Source of the DNA: Spirochaetaceae bacterium
GTDB taxonomy: Bacteria; Spirochaetota; Spirochaetia; SZUA-6; RPPD01
Assembly: GCA_003818675.1 (NCBI GenBank)
Contig: RPPD01000056.1
Span: 1-8,966 of the forward strand
Length of the DNA stretch: 8,966 bases
Reading direction: 5' to 3'
The notes below the pieces were generated by a model. It was not told the DNA's origin and made no database searches. It saw nothing but the letters and a program-made list of their open reading frames with translations. This document shows, one piece after another, positions 3-8,820 of this stretch (position 1 is its first letter; each line of letters begins with the position of its first letter). A program made the translations under genes and the position numbers.

Positions 3-209
3 TGCGATGAGAAAGCCCTTGAAAAAATCCTCAGGGAAGGTTTGATCAGGTTTAATATGAAATCCAAAATATTGGACCCGGAAAGGATTGAGATCTCCTA
101 TCAAGTGAGATTAAGAAAAGAAGGCCAGGATGCGCTGCAGGGGATAAAAAATATTGAAAAGGTTGAAAGCGTATCACTGATCAATTACAATCCTAATACT
201 GTCCCGTGA
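3..209 (+). CDS. C-terminal fragment of a gene truncated by the window edge; possible DUF4956/MgtC-like ACT-type tail
   Basis: An open frame enters from the left edge and gives 68 residues before a TGA stop at 207-209. The other two plus frames close within the first 45 bases. The fragment starts CDEKALEKIL and ends SLINYNPNTVP. Its pattern, a strand-rich YQVRLRKEG, then a helix, then IEKVESVSLI, resembles the small regulatory ACT-like tail that ends MgtC/SapB-type and DUF4956 membrane proteins. That assignment is inference from a short pattern only. Any membrane domain lies outside the window. The last 17 bp overlap the end of the convergent gene on the other strand. Confidence 0.6.
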   Translation, partial: CDEKALEKILREGLIRFNMKSKILDPERIEISYQVRLRKEGQDALQGIKNIEKVESVSLINYNPNTVP

Positions 210-2358
210 GTTTTCCATTTGCCCGAAGAAATGGTCGTATTTGCTTTACAATTATCCTGTTGTCTGTAGTGATCTTCCACTCGGTATCCCACAGAAGACT
301 GTATCCGTCTGGAATCTTGAAATCTACCGGATAATCACGCGCCACTTTCCATAAAAGAGATGAAATATCACGAATCTGTTCTTTTGAAACCAGGTAAAGA
401 TCATAAGTACCTGTGTTGGAAAAAGAAACTCTCTCGATTTTTGTCACTTCTCCCTGTGCAACAGTTACAAATGTTTTTTCCGGGTATATCCCTCCAAATG
501 ACCTCACCGTATCAACATCACCTTCCTGGGCATTAAAGAGAAAGCGGTTGTCTTCCATCCCGGGATTCCCGGTGAAAATAACCATGTTCACTTTTTCATC
601 CTTGACTCTTGCATTCACAAGGATTGCCATTCCTGCGTCCCGGTGATTGATTGAATACCATGATCTTTCCTCAAATGCCTGCGTATTCCAAAGCGAAGCC
701 CAGACTTCAATAAGTGCAGCAGCTATTGGTTTTTCATTTTTTTCTGCGGGGTCGCCGCGTGAAGGGCCGATTTCGTCTGTGTCCAAATCATCCGCGATGC
801 AGGCTGTTTTTGATTCGTAAAGACCCGCTCCGGAAAAGAAAATGGAATCCTCCGCATTTGAACTGCTTCGCATGCGTAACATGATATTATGATTTCCAAA
901 AACATCGCTGATCCTTTTGTCAAGCAAAGACAATAACGCCGGATCAAGCCTGCATGCAATCATGGATTCTCTCATCTGCTTGAGTCTTTGTGCACGATAA
1001 GCAATATCATTTTGAAATTTATCATCCGTCAGCCAAAAATTGATTGTCTCCTCGAAGGAATGAAATCCATTCATGTTCCCCAGCGTAATATTCCAGCCGT
1101 TGTTTTTCATAAAATCAAAATACCATGCTGTTGGAATGGCAAAACCGCTCATTTTATAATGGTTACCAATCATGTTGTAAAGTATGGCCAATTGTGTTGC
1201 CTTTGAACCAAAGCGTCTGGTCGATTGGCTGCGCTCGGCAGCGCCTGATACTGGTATGCTGGAAATATCAGTCAGAATATCAAAATCCCTGTCTGCGGGC
1301 GGAATATCAGCCTTTTCCGGCTTGAGTCTGTTCCACCAGTTTTTGGCATCAGCCTGGCTCGCATTTTCTATCTCCCATGTGTCTTTTTTCAACACAAGAT
1401 GAACAAGGCGGTTTTCCCATTTCTTTAAAGAGTTGAATGGATCAGATATGTGACAATTGGCAATATGACGATTTGCGAGACGGACATTCAGGTGTGAAAG
1501 CTCTCCCTGGCGGGTGCCAGTTACGATTCCTGAAACAACAGGGATGATATCAAACGGAGCACTGTCGATTACAATAATTTCACGATAATCCACACTGGAT
1601 GAAATGATTCCCTTGTCAAATGTATTTAAATGCAGGAATTTCAAAGTGCCATATGCTTCTGTTGCTGTATAGGCTTCGTATCCGTTAATGAGTTCATCCT
1701 GATTATATATTGGAACGCTGGTATTACCCCAGTTCTTCATGGAATCGCGCTGATTTTTTGAAAATGGGTCAAACTGAAGTTCTCCAACAGTAAAAAGAGA
1801 TTTTAATGCTGCGTAGACGCCTTCCACTTCCGCACGGCTTATTGTCTTGGCAGGATCACTGACATGATGCCATATTGTGAAACAGAAAATCCTGTTGCCA
1901 TTTCTGTCTGTTCTTTCTGTAATATTTCCAGAGTAAAAAACACGTTGTGCAGGTTCGATGGCCATTGTCACATATGAATCATAGGTAATATTGGGAAAGT
2001 CCCTGGCGAAAAATGCACCAAGCACCACATGATGATCAGGATAATTGTTAAGGTTCATGAAATAGGGATAAAGCCCTGATTTGCCCTTGATCGGGATGAG
2101 GAACCTGGTCCCTTTAAGCTCATTCTCCTTGATTGCCCCGCTGATCAGGTTCCAAACCTCATCTGTAGGAACACGGGGAACGAGTACGATTTGATTGACA
2201 TTGTCACGTATTGTCTGCGGGTCATTCAGGATCGCAGCAGTGGACGAATCCATGTTTGCTGTAAAGGGGGAATTGACATCATTTTTGTTGCAGGAAATAA
2301 ATTGAAGAATAAGAATCAAACCAAATCCGATTGACAATCTCAATATATGTTTTCCCAT
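193..2358 (-). CDS. Predicted lipoprotein with a phosphohistidine swivel domain plus PEP-synthase/PPDK-type ATP-grasp domain (glucan water dikinase-like order)
   Basis: 721 residues. The ATG at 2358 is preferred over an upstream in-frame start at 2433 because AGGGG lies 4 nt before it and it begins a lipoprotein signal peptide: MGKHILR, a hydrophobic stretch, then FISC with Cys23. Residues about 30-240 match no family I recognise. Residues about 255-300 resemble the phosphohistidine domain of PEP-utilising enzymes, with GELSHLNVRL giving candidate phospho-His289. Residues 383-721 resemble the PPDK N-terminal/PEP synthase ATP-binding domain: FGSK (Lys386), MRSSSNAEDS (Arg497), VWASLWN, DTEW (Glu693) and KQIRP (Gln706, Arg708). 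Placing the His domain before the ATP-binding domain is the order of plant glucan, water dikinases (SHVSVRARN-type motif, from memory); PEP synthase has the reverse. The usual GLGE motif reads GDVD (613-616). The substrate is unknown. An extracytoplasmic site is odd for an ATP-dependent enzyme. A non-catalytic binding role is possible. Confidence 0.85.
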   Translation of the reverse strand: MGKHILRLSIGFGLILILQFISCNKNDVNSPFTANMDSSTAAILNDPQTIRDNVNQIVLVPRVPTDEVWNLISGAIKENELKGTRFLIPIKGKSGLYPYFMNLNNYPDHHVVLGAFFARDFPNITYDSYVTMAIEPAQRVFYSGNITERTDRNGNRIFCFTIWHHVSDPAKTISRAEVEGVYAALKSLFTVGELQFDPFSKNQRDSMKNWGNTSVPIYNQDELINGYEAYTATEAYGTLKFLHLNTFDKGIISSSVDYREIIVIDSAPFDIIPVVSGIVTGTRQGELSHLNVRLANRHIANCHISDPFNSLKKWENRLVHLVLKKDTWEIENASQADAKNWWNRLKPEKADIPPADRDFDILTDISSIPVSGAAERSQSTRRFGSKATQLAILYNMIGNHYKMSGFAIPTAWYFDFMKNNGWNITLGNMNGFHSFEETINFWLTDDKFQNDIAYRAQRLKQMRESMIACRLDPALLSLLDKRISDVFGNHNIMLRMRSSSNAEDSIFFSGAGLYESKTACIADDLDTDEIGPSRGDPAEKNEKPIAAALIEVWASLWNTQAFEERSWYSINHRDAGMAILVNARVKDEKVNMVIFTGNPGMEDNRFLFNAQEGDVDTVRSFGGIYPEKTFVTVAQGEVTKIERVSFSNTGTYDLYLVSKEQIRDISSLLWKVARDYPVDFKIPDGYSLLWDTEWKITTDNRIIVKQIRPFLRANGKLTGQY

Positions 2359-2952: not shown

Positions 2953-3429
2953 TCAGCGAACCTGCGACAGATCCCTGCGCTGCTGCGGCGTAGGACCGCT
3001 GCCGCTTGAATTGGGAGTTCCCACAACAGTGTCCTGAGCCGGATCGTCCTTAACCGTCCATTTATAAGACTGGCTGTTGTCCTCGAAATAGAACCACCTG
3101 GTTCTGTTGTTCGCCGGGCCGCCCAGTCCTGCCTTTTCGAATACAACCATTACATACATCCCGGTCTTGACCCGAAGCTGGAAGCCTGTGGTTCCCCATC
3201 CGGGAGATATCATTGAAGCGCCCGTCAAATCCGTGCCCCAGCGGTTGTCGCCGAGTGTCGGCGGTTTTTGTGCGCGGGGGATATTGTCTAATATGTATAT
3301 TTTATCGATTTTCCATCTGGTCGCATTATGTACAAAAAATGTGACGAGTTCCTCTGTGGCAAAAACGTCCCCTGTCAAAAAAACTAAAATCAATAACCCC
3401 AGGAGAACGGGCGCAAGCAGTCGGTTAAT
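2953..3429 (-). CDS. Small secreted protein of unknown family, probably started at an ATT codon
   Basis: 158 residues if translation begins at ATT 3429-3427. A perfect AGGAGG (3435-3440) sits 5 nt upstream, and this start gives a textbook Sec signal peptide: (M)NRLLAPVLLGLLILVFLTG, then cleavage after VFA at residue 24. No ATG or GTG exists in the frame upstream. The alternatives are a TTG at 3528, which overlaps the aldehyde dehydrogenase gene and buries the signal peptide behind 33 polar residues, and a CTG at 3420, 14 nt from the AGGAGG. The mature part has strand-rich segments (FFVHNATRWKIDKIYILDN, WGTDLTGASMISPGWGTTGF, VKTGMYVMVVFE). The NRWGTDL...I.PG...F.L..G.Y pattern is reminiscent of small periplasmic beta-sandwich proteins, but I cannot name a family. 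The Ser/Gly/Pro/Gln-rich tail looks disordered. An ATG-to-ATT sequencing error is possible. Confidence 0.7.
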   Translation of the reverse strand: MNRLLAPVLLGLLILVFLTGDVFATEELVTFFVHNATRWKIDKIYILDNIPRAQKPPTLGDNRWGTDLTGASMISPGWGTTGFQLRVKTGMYVMVVFEKAGLGGPANNRTRWFYFEDNSQSYKWTVKDDPAQDTVVGTPNSSGSGPTPQQRRDLSQVR

Positions 3430-3447
3430 GGATTCCTCCTGTACTGA

Positions 3448-3475
3448 ATTGTATGCAACCCCGGCCGGATTACAA
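3448..3475 (-). promoter_or_regulatory. Candidate sigma70 promoter for the secreted-protein gene
   Basis: On the minus strand TTGTAA (3475-3470) and TACAAT (3453-3448) are separated by 16 bp. The -10 matches consensus at five of six positions and the -35 at four of six. Transcription would start near 3441, at the AGGAGG, giving a very short leader of about 12 nt. If real, it rules out the TTG start at 3528. It is only a sequence match. Confidence 0.3.
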
Positions 3476-3502
3476 GAGGAATATTTCGTTTCCGGAATCT
3501 TG

Positions 3503-5056
3503 TCACCATTTTTTGATGCTTGCTGCAAACATTTTGATGATTTTTCCCAGGCCCGTTATTTTTTTGAATGGATTTCTGCAGTACAGCACATCCAGAATTC
3601 CCTTGAGGCGGCCATAGAGTTTCTTGGAATGGGGGTACCACCACATGTTCTTGGGCATGCGGTGAAGCAGGTCGCGCACAACAACCTTGCTCTGGGTCAT
3701 TTCGTAAAAACCCATTTCGCCGTGCGATCTGCCTATGCCGGACTGGCGGTATCCGCCCCAGTGGGTTTCCGCGAGGCCGTGGCTCATCAAATGGTCATTT
3801 ATCATTACAGAGCCGGCTTCAAGTCTTTCTGCAAGTTTTTTTGCGCGGCCCGCGCTTTTTGACCAGACACTCGCGGTCAGGCCATAGATCGTGGAATTGG
3901 CCCTTGCGACCACTTCGTCATAATTGTCAAATGTGTCCAGTACGAGTATCGGGCCGAAACTTTCCTCGGTGAGTATGCGCATGCCGGGTTTGACGCGGTC
4001 AAGGAGCACGGCCGGAAGGAGAAGTTTCCCGGGATCATCTTTTCCTGCCGATGCCAGGATTCGCGCGCCTGCTTTGACCGCCTGTGCAACCTGCGATTTA
4101 ACGGTGTCGTACTGCTGTTTTGTTGACATGGCGCCGATGTCCACGTCAAACTCGTTTTCGCGACCGACACGGAGCGCCGCGAGTTTGCCAGCGAGGATTT
4201 CCCCAAACCTGTCCGCGATCCGCTTGTGAGCGTATATGCGCTGGACTCCACCGCATGACTGCCCGCAATTTGAAAGACCTGCCCAGAGCGCGCCGTTTGC
4301 AGCGCGCTGGAGTGAAGCATCCTCGCAGACAATCATGGCGTCGTTGCCGCCCAGCTCAAGGCAGACCGGGATGAGATAGTCCGCCGCCTGTTTCATCAAT
4401 TCCTTGCCAACGGGAATGGAGCCCGTGAAAAAGAGTTTGTTGATGCCTGAACCGAGAAACGCTGGACCGGCGACAGCCCCAGGCAGGTGCACCAGGTGAA
4501 ACAGGTCTGCCGGGAGACCAGCTTCCGAAAGAAGCTTTTTTATGTGCTCGCCCACAGCCTCTGCAATGCTTGCCACCTTGAGGATTACCGCGTTACCGCA
4601 CATGAGCGCCATCACAACCTCGTGGAAAGGGATGCCGAAGGGATAATTCCATGGACTGATGATTCCCACAACTCCCCAGGGTTCAAAGACCAGGGTGGAG
4701 CGCTTGTAGGAGAGCAGAAGGTTCCCCGCGCGAATGGGGCGTTTATCGAGGAAGCGTTTTGTGGCTTTGGCATAATACTTCGCGGCCATCGCCGAAGGAA
4801 GAACCTCGGTGCTGAGAGCGTCCAGATTGGTCTTTCCGGTTGCATGGGCAATTGTCCCTGCGATCTCGTCTGCATGTTTTCCAATCAATCCGGCCAGCCT
4901 GCCAATGATCCGGCCGCGTTTGGCAAAGCTTGCTTTTCTCCAGGCTTCCTGGGCTTTCCTGGCCTTTAAAACGGCCGTTGTAACCATTTGACCTGGGTTT
5001 TTGACGGCAAGTCCGCTGTTGCCATGTTTTGATTTTTTTCTGATTATTTTTGCCAT
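3503..5056 (-). CDS. NAD(P)-dependent aldehyde dehydrogenase with a basic/hydrophobic C-terminal tail
   Basis: 517 residues, from an ATG with AGGGAGGT about 5 nt upstream. It oxidises an aldehyde to the acid. Active-site landmarks are in order: ISPWNYPF (Asn137), NAVILK (Lys160), FTGSIPVG (Gly212-Gly217, cofactor), LELGGND (general base Glu234), NCGQSCGG (nucleophile Cys268, the usual 34 residues after the Glu) and EESFGPIL. The segment after Lys160 reads VAS where most relatives have PSE. The last ~55 residues (MPKNMWWYPHSKKLYG onward) are rich in Lys, Trp and Leu/Ile and extend beyond the catalytic core. The first 20 residues are also basic. Both suggest membrane or lipid contact, an inference. 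Substrate is unknown; fatty or aromatic aldehydes are reasonable guesses. The start lies 2 bp after the SDR stop, whose TAA falls between its Shine-Dalgarno and ATG, so the two are probably translationally coupled. Confidence 0.95.
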   Translation of the reverse strand: MAKIIRKKSKHGNSGLAVKNPGQMVTTAVLKARKAQEAWRKASFAKRGRIIGRLAGLIGKHADEIAGTIAHATGKTNLDALSTEVLPSAMAAKYYAKATKRFLDKRPIRAGNLLLSYKRSTLVFEPWGVVGIISPWNYPFGIPFHEVVMALMCGNAVILKVASIAEAVGEHIKKLLSEAGLPADLFHLVHLPGAVAGPAFLGSGINKLFFTGSIPVGKELMKQAADYLIPVCLELGGNDAMIVCEDASLQRAANGALWAGLSNCGQSCGGVQRIYAHKRIADRFGEILAGKLAALRVGRENEFDVDIGAMSTKQQYDTVKSQVAQAVKAGARILASAGKDDPGKLLLPAVLLDRVKPGMRILTEESFGPILVLDTFDNYDEVVARANSTIYGLTASVWSKSAGRAKKLAERLEAGSVMINDHLMSHGLAETHWGGYRQSGIGRSHGEMGFYEMTQSKVVVRDLLHRMPKNMWWYPHSKKLYGRLKGILDVLYCRNPFKKITGLGKIIKMFAASIKKW

Positions 5057-5058
5057 GC

Positions 5059-5880
5059 TTACCTCCCTGTCCAGGTGGACATGCTCTTGTGAACGTCTAA
5101 AACGCGGATTATGGCCTGAAAGACAAAGTCAGGCAGTATACCGCGTAAAAACACCGCGATTCTGATTGAACGCGGACGTTTGGGCGAATGCCGGCCGTGT
5201 TTAATGCATGTGTTGACAATGCATTTGGCGATCGTGTCGTGGTTTTTGACTAATGGAACGATAAGCCCGCCAAGCCCGCCGATTTTGGCTCCCTGAAACA
5301 TGCCCGTGGCGATATAGCCCGGATGCACAGACGAGAAACGGACGCCGCGTTTCCTGAAGTTGGCTGCCTCATGCCTTAGGGCTTCTGTGAGTCCCCAGAC
5401 TGCCCATTTCACCGCGGAGTACATGGCGAGGCCCGGCACTCCAATGGTGCCCGCGGCTGAGGAGATGTTCACGATGCTGCCGGAATTGCGTTTGTACATG
5501 TCAGGGAGAAATGCCTTGATGGTGTAAATCATGGCTGTGAGATTGACGCTGATTGTTTTTTCATGCTTTTCATCAGGAACTTCCATGAAATCTCCGCCTG
5601 CGACATATCCCGCGTTGTTGACAAGGATGTCAACCCTGCCCATGTCCTTTTTGGCCTGCTTTGCCATCAGGGCAACACGTTTTTTGTCCGTAATGTCGCA
5701 TTCGCGTGCAAAGGCTTTTCCGCCCAGTGCGTCCAGTTCCTTTAGTGCGGCGTTCATTTGTTTTTTGTTGATATCCCAGATGGTGACAGTGACGCCTGCC
5801 CTGACAAGCCGTTTGGCTGTAGCAAGCCCTATACCCAAAGCACCGCCAGTAATGACAGCTGTTTTTCCCGCGAGCTTCAT
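5059..5880 (-). CDS. Short-chain dehydrogenase/reductase (SDR), NAD-type
   Basis: 273 residues. The ATG at 5880 is chosen over an in-frame ATG seven codons upstream because AAGGAGG ends 5 nt before it and the family start (MKLAGKTAVITGG) follows. Classical SDR motifs are complete: TGGALGIG (residues 11-18), Asp36 at the end of the second strand (WDIN, favouring NAD over NADP), NNAG (88-91), Asn113, Ser141, and the catalytic Tyr154-x3-Lys158 (YSAVK). HPGYIATGM lies in the substrate region. The C-terminal ~35 residues contain a hydrophobic stretch (IAVFLRGILPDFVFQAIIRVL) that could contact a membrane. The enzyme interconverts an alcohol or hydroxyl with a carbonyl. Immediate coupling to an aldehyde dehydrogenase suggests alcohol oxidation in two steps, but the substrate cannot be read from sequence. 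It is the first gene of the minus-strand series. Confidence 0.94.
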   Translation of the reverse strand: MKLAGKTAVITGGALGIGLATAKRLVRAGVTVTIWDINKKQMNAALKELDALGGKAFARECDITDKKRVALMAKQAKKDMGRVDILVNNAGYVAGGDFMEVPDEKHEKTISVNLTAMIYTIKAFLPDMYKRNSGSIVNISSAAGTIGVPGLAMYSAVKWAVWGLTEALRHEAANFRKRGVRFSSVHPGYIATGMFQGAKIGGLGGLIVPLVKNHDTIAKCIVNTCIKHGRHSPKRPRSIRIAVFLRGILPDFVFQAIIRVLDVHKSMSTWTGR

Positions 5881-5887
5881 GGAGGCC

Positions 5888-6044: not shown

Positions 6045-7412
6045 ATGTTCAGCTGGAGGAAGGGAATTGTTGCGATAACGGGAATTGTCGTTGCCTACTT
6101 GTTTTTTGGAGCGCAGGTATACGCGCAGGCAACTGTAAAGTTTCCGGACAAGATTTTTGATGTTACGAAATATGCTGTATCCGGTACGGTTGGAACCGCA
6201 TCCATCCAGAAGGCAATCGACGAATGCACTGCCGCAGGCGGCGGCACGGTTGTTGTGCCAAAAGGGAAATACCAAATCGGTCCCCTTATCATGAAAAGCA
6301 ATGTCAGGCTTGAATTGAAAAAGGATGCCACACTCGTAGCCATAAACGACGTGACTGCCTTCACCTCCACTCCCGAAACTTCCCAATATGCCGCAAACGG
6401 CTGGGTCGCGTTTATTAATGCGCGAAAAGCGAGCAATATGGCAATTGTCGGTGATGGCGTCATTGACGGTCAGGGTGCATTCTGGTGGGAACGCTATAAG
6501 CAGGAACAGATAGTTTCCGGCGGCAGAAGCGGTACCAACAGGCCAAGGCTCATCTATTTTACGGAAGTTGCCAATGTTCTCTTTGACGGGATCACACTGA
6601 AAAATTCCATGAGCTTCCACCTGGTCACCAAGCGGTCAAGTGACATTACCATCAACAACATCCAAATTGATGCACCTGTTGATTCACCAAACACGGACGG
6701 CATCGATCCCATGAGCACGCGCAATGTCCTGATCACCAACTGCACCATAAGCTGCGGTGATGACCATATCGCCATCAAGGCCGACGGCATTGACAACGCG
6801 CATCCCAATGCGTCAATTGAAAACATAAGGGTAACAGGCTGCACCTTCCTCGCGGGCCGCGGGCTTTCCATCGGAAGCGAGTCATTGGGGGGCGTAGTAA
6901 ACGTCCATGCGGAAAACAATGTCTTTCGTGGTTGTATGTACGGAATCAGGATCAAGAGCCCCAGGGGCAAGGGAGGGGAAGTCAGACAGGTCACCTACAT
7001 CAACAACACAATGACGGACGTTGAGACCTGTTTTGTCTTTTCAGGCTACTATACGGGCATTCCGGACGATCCGGTTGAGGCAAAAAAGATCCTTGACGCA
7101 GGCGGATTTATCCTCGGTAACCAGATTTATCCAAATGATGCGGATCCGGCCCAGCCTTATGTTGAGAAAAGGACGCCGTATTTCCATGACATAACAATCA
7201 CAAACATCACCTGCACGGGCCAGAACACCAATGCCGGTTTCGTGATGGGGCTTCCAGAGAAATTCCTGGAGAACATCATTTTCACGAATGTAAAGATTCA
7301 GTCGCAAAAGGGCATGCTGATAAGGAATGCCACTGTCACAAACAAGGGCTTGGTCATCACTGTCAGGGAAGGGGCGCCATTCATCCTCCAGAAAAACGGA
7401 GTAGTGAAATAA
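6045..7412 (+). CDS. Secreted glycoside hydrolase family 28 (polygalacturonase-like) protein
   Basis: 455 residues with a Sec signal peptide (MFSWRKG, hydrophobic core, cleavage probably after VYA, residue 27). The mature protein begins with the pectate-lyase-superfamily/GH28 entry pattern (FDVTKYAVSGTVGTASIQKAIDEC, then GGGTVVVPKGKY) and continues as repeated beta-helix rungs (NITI/NVLITNCTI-like). GH28 signatures are in order: NTD (216-218), GDD (238-240, catalytic Asp pair) and RIK (302-304). The motif normally GHG before LSIGSE reads GRG, with Arg272 replacing the usual His. Family members hydrolyse galacturonan or related pectic polysaccharides in the periplasm or outside the cell. The His change could alter specificity or activity. 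No transporter, lyase or esterase for pectin is adjacent. The gene is divergent from the SDR and convergent with the hydrolase gene 52 bp downstream, with no clear terminator in that gap. Confidence 0.93.
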   Translation: MFSWRKGIVAITGIVVAYLFFGAQVYAQATVKFPDKIFDVTKYAVSGTVGTASIQKAIDECTAAGGGTVVVPKGKYQIGPLIMKSNVRLELKKDATLVAINDVTAFTSTPETSQYAANGWVAFINARKASNMAIVGDGVIDGQGAFWWERYKQEQIVSGGRSGTNRPRLIYFTEVANVLFDGITLKNSMSFHLVTKRSSDITINNIQIDAPVDSPNTDGIDPMSTRNVLITNCTISCGDDHIAIKADGIDNAHPNASIENIRVTGCTFLAGRGLSIGSESLGGVVNVHAENNVFRGCMYGIRIKSPRGKGGEVRQVTYINNTMTDVETCFVFSGYYTGIPDDPVEAKKILDAGGFILGNQIYPNDADPAQPYVEKRTPYFHDITITNITCTGQNTNAGFVMGLPEKFLENIIFTNVKIQSQKGMLIRNATVTNKGLVITVREGAPFILQKNGVVK

Positions 7413-7464: not shown

Positions 7465-8820
7465 TCACCTCACATTCTCGTCCAGCCAGTCAAATATTTT
7501 TGCATAACCAACAGCTGGCGAGCCTGTCTGGCAGTGGAGAGAGGCCGCGTCAGCACGTGTAAAGAGCATGTACTCCTTTGGTGCCTGCACAAGGTCAAAG
7601 ACGCGCCTGGGTTGGCCGCGACCGAACTCCTCGTCCTCGGCATCTACTACTAATGTCCGCGATGTGATGCGTGGCAGATCAGCCTCATACTCGTACCTGG
7701 TCAATATGGAAAAGAGCTGTGATGGTGTCTTTGCACCAAAGACCCACATGCCATGGTGGATACCCCAGCGAATTCCAAAATCGTATTTGGCGAGCTCAAG
7801 GATCTTTTTATCAAAGTCTGCCGGGTCATCCTCCTGCATCACAAGAAGTTTGTCGGGGAACATGTCCGTAAACATGTCTGAAATGGAAACATACCCCGGA
7901 TCAAGCACAACAGCGGAAAGCCTGTGCTCATATGACGCTGCGCGGGCGGCAAATCCCCCTCCCATTGAAATCCCCATGAGCGCGATGTTGTCAGGATCAA
8001 CTCCAGGCTGCCGTAATACAAAATCAACAGCCGGTGCCACTACATTCTCCCAATCCGGTCTGAATACCAGTCCATGTTCCCGGATTGTGAGTCCCTGGCC
8101 GGGACCTTCAAAAAGAAGACAGTGCCAGCCGCGCTTTATTGCAGCTTCTGCAAGACCCCAGGTAGATTCAATGGCTGCGTCAAAGCCCTGGTGCGAAATC
8201 AGAATGGGACGCGCGCCGGACTGTGCTGTACGGAAAAAATATCCGCGGAGTGTCATGCCCTCATAGGGAATCTGTACAACGGAAACGTTTACCCCCAAAA
8301 GCCTGAGCGCTTTGACAAAATTATTACCCGCCCTGCGATAGGTTGTCAGTATGCGCGGGTCGTCGACATTGGTATGCAGGAAAATTTCCGCGGATAGAAA
8401 ATAATGGGCGCTGCGCAGATAAGCCTCTCCCGCGCTGATTTTATGATCCATGGCAAGCGCGTCATCCGCAAGCTTTTCCACCCGGGTGGCTGTCTTAAAC
8501 CATTCGTCACACCAGGATATCTCGCTTGTATGGCGGATCCTCGTTGCTGTGTCCATAATCTCGCTGATATCGCCCAAACCATTATAGACCCCGCCAAGGG
8601 TGTACAGAAAGTGGGTGTCCATGAACCAATTGCCGATGAAGCGCATTGAAAACCATTTTGATGAGGAGAGATTGCTGGATTTGCCAAGTGCCTGATAACG
8701 GGGATCAGACATATTTGCCTGGGGTACGGCACCAGCATGTTGTCCTGGTCCGCAGGAAATCAGCAATACCGCAAACATGATCATGCATATTCTCAGAGTA
8801 TTATACGATAATTGTTTCAT
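7465..8820 (-). CDS. Lipoprotein alpha/beta hydrolase (FrsA / 2,6-dihydropseudooxynicotine hydrolase-like)
   Basis: 451 residues, from an ATG with AAGGAAGGAG about 5 nt upstream. The N-terminus is a clear lipoprotein signal: MKQLSYNTLRIC, a hydrophobic run, then LISC with Cys23. The next residue is Gly, so outer-membrane sorting is possible by the usual rule. Residues about 35-185 are a helical cap (for example AGEAYLRSAHYFLSAEIFL), as in the FrsA/dihydropseudooxynicotine hydrolase group. The catalytic domain shows ISHQGFD, FEGPGQG (oxyanion side), nucleophile Ser285 in GISMGGG, an acid from DAEDEE (Asp393-Glu398) and His429 in SLHCQTG, then FDWLDE. All triad elements are present and the length is normal once the signal is added. 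Relatives cleave C-C, ester or amide bonds in small molecules; the substrate here is unknown. Most characterised members are cytoplasmic, so the lipoprotein form is notable. Confidence 0.92.
   Translation of the reverse strand: MKQLSYNTLRICMIMFAVLLISCGPGQHAGAVPQANMSDPRYQALGKSSNLSSSKWFSMRFIGNWFMDTHFLYTLGGVYNGLGDISEIMDTATRIRHTSEISWCDEWFKTATRVEKLADDALAMDHKISAGEAYLRSAHYFLSAEIFLHTNVDDPRILTTYRRAGNNFVKALRLLGVNVSVVQIPYEGMTLRGYFFRTAQSGARPILISHQGFDAAIESTWGLAEAAIKRGWHCLLFEGPGQGLTIREHGLVFRPDWENVVAPAVDFVLRQPGVDPDNIALMGISMGGGFAARAASYEHRLSAVVLDPGYVSISDMFTDMFPDKLLVMQEDDPADFDKKILELAKYDFGIRWGIHHGMWVFGAKTPSQLFSILTRYEYEADLPRITSRTLVVDAEDEEFGRGQPRRVFDLVQAPKEYMLFTRADAASLHCQTGSPAVGYAKIFDWLDENVR

Follow-up and report, generated by a model that had tools for sequence, protein, structure and literature searches.

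Predicted bacterial lipoproteins with a conserved dikinase-type active site in a spirochaete and in Myxococcota

Known histidine dikinases are cytoplasmic or plastid enzymes that are supplied by abundant ATP. In plant glucan, water dikinase (GWD), the swivel domain comes first and the ATP-grasp domain lies at the C-terminus. The relevant passages on rifampin phosphotransferase (RPH-Lm, 5hv1) give the order as ATP-grasp, rifampin-binding and then a His domain near the C-terminus (PMC4844700). In mycobacteria, a regulatory histidine kinase derived from pyruvate phosphate dikinase (PPDK) has been reported (PMC13400623), so there is precedent for this module taking on new roles. Here we describe a gene in 8,966 nucleotides of a Spirochaetaceae bacterium (contig RPPD01000056.1; this whole stretch is referred to as the window), the product of which, the window protein, carries an N-terminal domain, then the His and then ATP-grasp behind a lipoprotein signal peptide. 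The most likely reading, which we consider probable, is that it is an active histidine dikinase that is exported and anchored to the membrane outside the cytoplasm. The observations on which this reading builds are the sequence, the predicted fold, the invariance of the catalytic residues and the lipobox.

The open reading frame runs from 2358 to 193 on the minus strand and its product has 721 residues. A GTG at 2433 could be the start of a longer frame, and the signal peptide comes from the ATG at 2358. The features are as follows.

193..2358, minus strand: whole gene of the 721-residue predicted exported dikinase-like lipoprotein, stop codon within the coordinates
2293..2358, minus strand: residues 1-22, predicted lipoprotein signal peptide (modelled as a helix over 3-24; lipobox scan)
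2290..2292, minus strand: Cys23 (FISC), predicted lipid-bearing residue (Cys in 21/21 rows of alignment A1)
1681..2226, minus strand: candidate acceptor domain at the N-terminus, residues 45-226 (modelled separately; invariant columns)
1324..1683, minus strand: phosphohistidine swivel domain, residues 226-345 (predicted structure)
1492..1494, minus strand: His289, the histidine predicted to be phosphorylated, where helix 289-296 begins (63/63 frames; model helix)
217..1287, minus strand: ATP-grasp (PPDK_N) domain, residues 358-714 (Pfam, predicted structure)
751..801, minus strand: Asp-rich loop 520-536 within the ATP-grasp domain, possible metal site (sequence alignments)

By its domains, the window protein belongs to the PPDK_N/swivel dikinase superfamily. 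The Pfam family PPDK_N spans residues 382-713 (58 bits against a cut-off of 27, E 1.3e-15) and matches 48/48 rows of the alignment A2 (see below) at E 0.1. The order N-terminal domain, swivel, ATP-grasp was read off the predicted structure, in which the chain ends with the ATP domain. An initial annotation of this DNA had proposed a dikinase-type swivel followed by ATP-grasp, and this is borne out by PPDK_N and the predicted structure; the 255-300 region that it took for a swivel falls within residues 226-345, which model as one. The motifs and residues it quoted were all found where it placed them, namely GELSHLNVRL at 285-294, His289, Lys386, Arg497, Glu693, Gln706 and Arg708, VWASLWN at 552, KQIRP at 705 and Cys23 in LQFISC. 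The initial annotation also likened KQIRP and VWASLWN to GWD, a possible resemblance.

A sequence search returned 20 close homologues with 35-62% identity over 88-98% of the query, together with two relatives of ~1,050 residues (P0022 and P0023) with 25-26% identity. In A1, which joins the window protein to its 20 close homologues, Cys23, His289, K386, R497, E693, Q706 and R708 are identical in 21/21 rows, and the observed features are therefore not due to chance. A wider comparison used 63 frames, from the window and 62 loci, in three batches: the 23 nearest (window, L001, L002, L037-L056), 20 that are more distant and in many cases longer (L057-L076), and 20 intermediate ones (L077-L096). 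His289, K386, R497, E503, D504, Q706 and R708 are each present in 63/63 frames, so that the homologues retain the histidine on which the initial annotation depended; position 693 is Glu in 61 and Asp in two, E588 is found in 59/63 and His109 in 62 with one gap. The other 47 rows of A2 are 25-59% identical to the window protein. From a set of 34 loci A2 omits seven: L009 (by eye, the same start as P0007), L023, L024, L031 and L032 (cut by contig ends), L033 (incomplete) and L029 (no lipobox). A third alignment, A3, has 10 rows, seven of them common to A2.

Family sequences are already in the databases. One phylum of 282 genomes, which includes L002 (Myxococcota) and L001 (titled Pseudomonadota), was searched with a profile, giving matches at E 0.001 in 145/282 genomes, the weak ones of which may be ordinary phosphoenolpyruvate (PEP) synthases, and strong matches (best E < 1e-60) in 86/282. 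When the A3 profile was run against a database, the best 120 listed proteins all scored at least 915 bits; among these 120, two are named PEP/pyruvate-binding domain-containing protein, Myxococcota bacterium, and the other names given are for the most part hypothetical protein or pyruvate, water dikinase. On both counts the family is not small. The 1,629 proteins at E 1e-20 were not taken as its size, since PEP synthases of the PDB reach 92 bits with this profile and the tail may hold them. One long branch of the tree (length 1.23, support 100/100) unites the window protein with P0002, and it falls within a 38-row clade (100/99), the locus rows of which all come from the searched phylum; the tree does not fix their position within the clade, and the composition of both was flagged as unusual. 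Transfer of the dikinase gene from Myxococcota is possible. Literature searches covering openly licensed papers found no study of exported dikinases.

The closest solved ATP-grasp domain to that of the predicted structure is RPH, among the structures in the PDB. An alignment of the A2 profile with the ATP domain of RPH matches K386, R497, S516, E693, Q706 and R708 to K22, R117, T136, E297, Q309 and R311, the RPH numbering resting on a worked-out, hand-counted offset of 12 residues. In the passages concerned, resistance is abolished by substitutions at K22, R117 or T136 but not by E297A, and R117A and T136V still split ATP (PMC4844700). With the same profile, the region around His289 aligns to the PEP synthase swivel domain of Neisseria, a very weak match of 3.1 bits, and a swivel profile alone (A5) gave four matches among PDB sequences, at E 0.29 or worse, with no dikinase among them. 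The swivel loop of the window protein reads TGTRQGELSH, and that of the L057-L076 and L077-L096 batches is mostly FQTPL(S/A)H. Within the ATP-grasp domain, the pattern of an Asp-rich loop with Cys (P0001 residues 520-536 and aligned loops) was found in 18/63 frames, that of the window not being one of them; this loop, which may resemble type 3 thrombospondin repeats, might bind calcium.

These conserved residues bear on two other readings. Were the protein a non-catalytic lipoprotein that had retained the fold and been repurposed for binding or sensing, its export, the scarcity of ATP outside and the beta-propeller, FG-GAP and other secreted-looking genes near several relatives would fit, yet catalytic decay would be expected and the 63 frames show only two changes of E693 to D. 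The initial annotation had offered a repurposed ligand-binding protein as an option; retention of the phosphate-handling residues speaks against it, and we regard it as unlikely. Alternatively, the phosphate on His289 might come from PEP, from polyphosphate or from some phosphorylated metabolite, or the enzyme might run in reverse, producing external ATP with AMP, a phosphoryl donor and inorganic phosphate (Pi) as substrates. This is somewhat less likely still, as the nucleotide-binding residues are invariant across the 63 frames, the chain stops at the ATP domain and so has no PEP-binding barrel, and the best NCBIfam PEP synthase match reaches 29.7 bits against a cut-off of 883.

The window protein is a bacterial lipoprotein by its signal peptide and lipobox Cys, with acylation and membrane location predicted. 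A motif scan for a lipobox after a hydrophobic stretch, accompanied by shuffles, found a lipobox-like signal in 53/63 frames against 1.47 expected, so the homologues surveyed agree with the lipobox and export claimed earlier. By batch the signal was found in 23/23 of the nearest, 18/20 of L077-L096 and 12/20 of L057-L076, and six of the ten misses (L057, L060, L061, L063, L065, L066) have, by eye, a similar signal further upstream. Scanning the 34 loci gave none in L023, L024, L029 and L031, of which L023 and L024 are without an N-terminus. The Cys column of A2 (48/48) is not independent of this result, since start codons were chosen with the help of the lipobox; the 21/21 of A1 and the shuffled scan are independent. 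When 23 other PPDK_N frames, drawn from eight of the same genomes, were scanned in a similar way, no lipobox was found in the shorter upstream sequence at hand (25 loci were tried, two gave no frame, and several frames were cut by the fetched stretch). A His-box pattern occurs in 12 of these 23: in 11 it follows the ATP motif, in one (L107) it overlaps the ATP motif itself, and the remaining 11 frames have no match.

Cysteine positions also appear to be gained and lost as pairs across A2, in counts that ignore kinship. Both, neither or a single Cys of the pair are found in 35, 10 and 3 rows for 302/323, in 41, 5 and 2 for 520/535, in 41, 2 and 5 for alignment columns 107/119, and in 11, 37 and 0 for each of alignment columns 445/477 and 573/655. 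P0001 and P0002 retain Cys302 and Cys520 but are without Cys323 and Cys535, so old disulfides seem to be broken in that lineage. That the signal peptide is falsely predicted and the protein cytoplasmic would account for the 10/63 frames in which the scan was negative; set against the aligned Cys of A1, the signal in the other 53 frames and in the whole nearest batch, the paired cysteines and the secreted-looking neighbours, this seems very improbable.

The N-terminal domain, modelled alone, gave a pLDDT of 93.3 and a pTM of 0.89. It had been left unassigned, and so it stays: no Pfam match was found at E 1, and comparison of the model with the PDB gave no convincing fold match. His109, Arg139, Gly144 and Pro198 are invariant in 28/28 rows of a further alignment (A4); across A2 (48 rows) full invariance holds for His109 and Gly144 alone, Arg139 and Pro198 being conserved in at least 90%. 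By its anatomy the window protein should work like GWD or RPH. We propose that the ATP-grasp domain would bind periplasmic or extracellular ATP, and that His289 of the swivel would take the beta-phosphate with release of AMP and Pi. The swivel domain would then turn to the N-terminal domain with its invariant His109, where an exposed acceptor may receive the phosphate; surface glycans, small molecules and partner lipoproteins are candidates. The location, the activity, ATP as the donor, the role of the N-terminal domain and the acceptor are thus all predicted parts of the proposal.

Several observations weigh against an active, exported dikinase. Extracytoplasmic ATP is low, and the GG loop of RPH-type swivels, given as T/SxxGGxxxH in the passage cited (PMC12167813), is absent before His289. 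The 62 loci were hand-picked from profile matches and are relatives by construction. The cysteine counts take no account of relatedness, and two of the pairs are seen in just 11 rows; 14/48 rows of A2 have an odd number of Cys after Cys23, and therefore not all cysteines are paired. The window protein itself is without Cys323 and Cys535, one partner each of 302/323 and 520/535, and like P0002 it is without both Cys of columns 107/119. The window also has none of the recurrent Myxococcota neighbours (groups of at least three loci). As to the ATP, the earlier objection that it is scarce outside holds in that it is low, but is weaker than it sounds. From what a review relates of an uptake experiment, the E. 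coli periplasm holds 24 uM ATP per 10^10 bacteria at steady state, and ATP is also found in outer membrane vesicles (PMC7432876); the ATP Km quoted for RPH is 8.4 uM (PMC4844700).

A bacterial counterpart of GWD, acting on surface or environmental alpha-glucan, would have a swivel-first order as in the plant enzyme, and a GH28 gene is present in the window. PEP-utilizers matches 0/48 rows of A2 at E 0.1, and GWD1_pHisD (PF22973) gives weak matches in 18/48 (best E 1.7e-4). In the window protein, however, GWD1_pHisD at 274-335 scores 16.5 bits, under its cut-off of 27, and it matches 0/10 rows of A3; among 57 genomes of the phylum none is over the cut-off and one is under it. P0022 and P0023 match PEP-utilizers instead, under cut-off, and a carbohydrate-binding module is absent from the Pfam matches of the window, A2 and A3. 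We therefore find the specific kinship with GWD drawn in the initial annotation unsupported by these scores, and a GWD counterpart improbable. High-resolution structures of GWD are listed as missing in the section cited of a 2026 review (PMC12892837).

Among the neighbourhoods of relatives, a group of ~330-390 residues, lipoprotein-like by eye, recurs as 15 frames in 14/63 loci, with 13 of the 14 strand-listed frames on the dikinase strand; four were scanned and none was over a Pfam cut-off. Other groups are beta-propeller-like (8 loci; two of three scanned over the SGL cut-off), FG-GAP (7 loci), secreted-looking and Ig-like (8 loci, L040-L042, L046-L048, L054, L055; one of two scanned just over the Big_5 cut-off) and lipoprotein-like of ~370 residues (5 loci). 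The clusters derive from stop-to-stop frames, so antisense frames also group and upstream or downstream labels are unreliable for overlapping frames. A conserved operon for the window was rejected, as no neighbour group of three or more loci includes a window gene. In five loci a downstream partner, lipoprotein-like by eye, has an acidic repeat linker and the motif Y-x-P-x-(H/R)-H-H-F.

L001, 7698-8840: motif-bearing downstream partner
L002, 8014-9090: motif-bearing downstream partner
L037, 6982-8127: motif-bearing downstream partner
L038, 6873-7976: motif-bearing downstream partner
L039, within 7919-10675: motif-bearing downstream partner

The pattern was not found in the 63 dikinase frames. 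P0022 and P0023 have a similar motif, YRPGHHNF, near their C-termini; a gene fusion was considered and not used, being suggestive only (a profile match of 5-8 bits spanning ~25 residues, with two sequences searched).

Around the dikinase gene, a C-terminal gene end at 3-209 (plus) is convergent with it and overlaps its end by 17 bases; this fragment has no Pfam match at E 1. An operon for polyphosphate or CotH, suggested by a possible likeness of the fragment (3-206, plus) to DUF4956, presumably a neighbour of VTC and CotH genes, was dropped on the same result. At 2953-3528 (minus) lies a frame of 191 residues, secreted-looking by eye and without a Pfam or NCBIfam match. Genes for an aldehyde dehydrogenase (3503-5056, minus) and a short-chain dehydrogenase (5059-5883, minus) adjoin, and both domains are fused in proteins of 803-830 residues (P0169, P0182, P0207, P0215, P0248); the nearest named matches of the former come from Spirochaetales/Spirochaetaceae metagenome-assembled genomes (P0156 65%, P0162 56%, P0163 57%), matches without an organism name reaching 73%, so a spirochaete is the probable source of the window. 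The GH28 polygalacturonase-like gene (6045-7412, plus) is the sole polysaccharide-active one among seven window proteins scanned, and an alpha/beta hydrolase at 7465-8820 (minus), distantly like FrsA and UilS, has its own lipoprotein-like signal (LLISC).

A lipoprotein family with a full active site would, if true, place ATP-driven transfer of phosphate at the surface of bacterial cells. The family offers a simple test of extracytoplasmic ATP in bacteria as a phosphate donor, and not only a signal or nutrient, and the N-terminal domain is one whose ligand can be sought. It is conceivable, though we hold this more tentatively, that in many Myxococcota and some spirochaetes surface glycans, or partner lipoproteins encoded alongside, are phosphorylated by anchored dikinases that have a new acceptor domain and use periplasmic ATP or ATP from lysed neighbours.

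Judged by cut-offs and architecture, the window protein would not be classed as GWD, PEP synthase, PPDK or RPH. It is predicted to be exported, unlike RPH, and its RIF_Ptrans_rph score is 10.8 bits where the NCBIfam cut-off is 999. The phenol dikinases HpeHI, CreHI and PpsAB consist of two separate chains and are not described as exported in the passages cited (PMC12167813). The likeness to PEP synthase and PPDK lies in the ATP-grasp fold and its residues, whereas the His of the window protein stands before the ATP domain and not after it, there is no PEP/pyruvate barrel, and the NCBIfam equivalogs are far under cut-off. The likeness to plant GWD and PWD lies in the weak PF22973 match and would extend to the swivel followed by a C-terminal ATP-grasp; in contrast to them the window protein is bacterial and predicted to be exported, stays under the PF22973 cut-off and has no carbohydrate-binding module found by Pfam. 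CotH and Fam20 are extracytoplasmic protein kinases with a protein-kinase-like fold and no phosphohistidine, and what the window protein would have in common with them is kinase action outside the cytoplasm.
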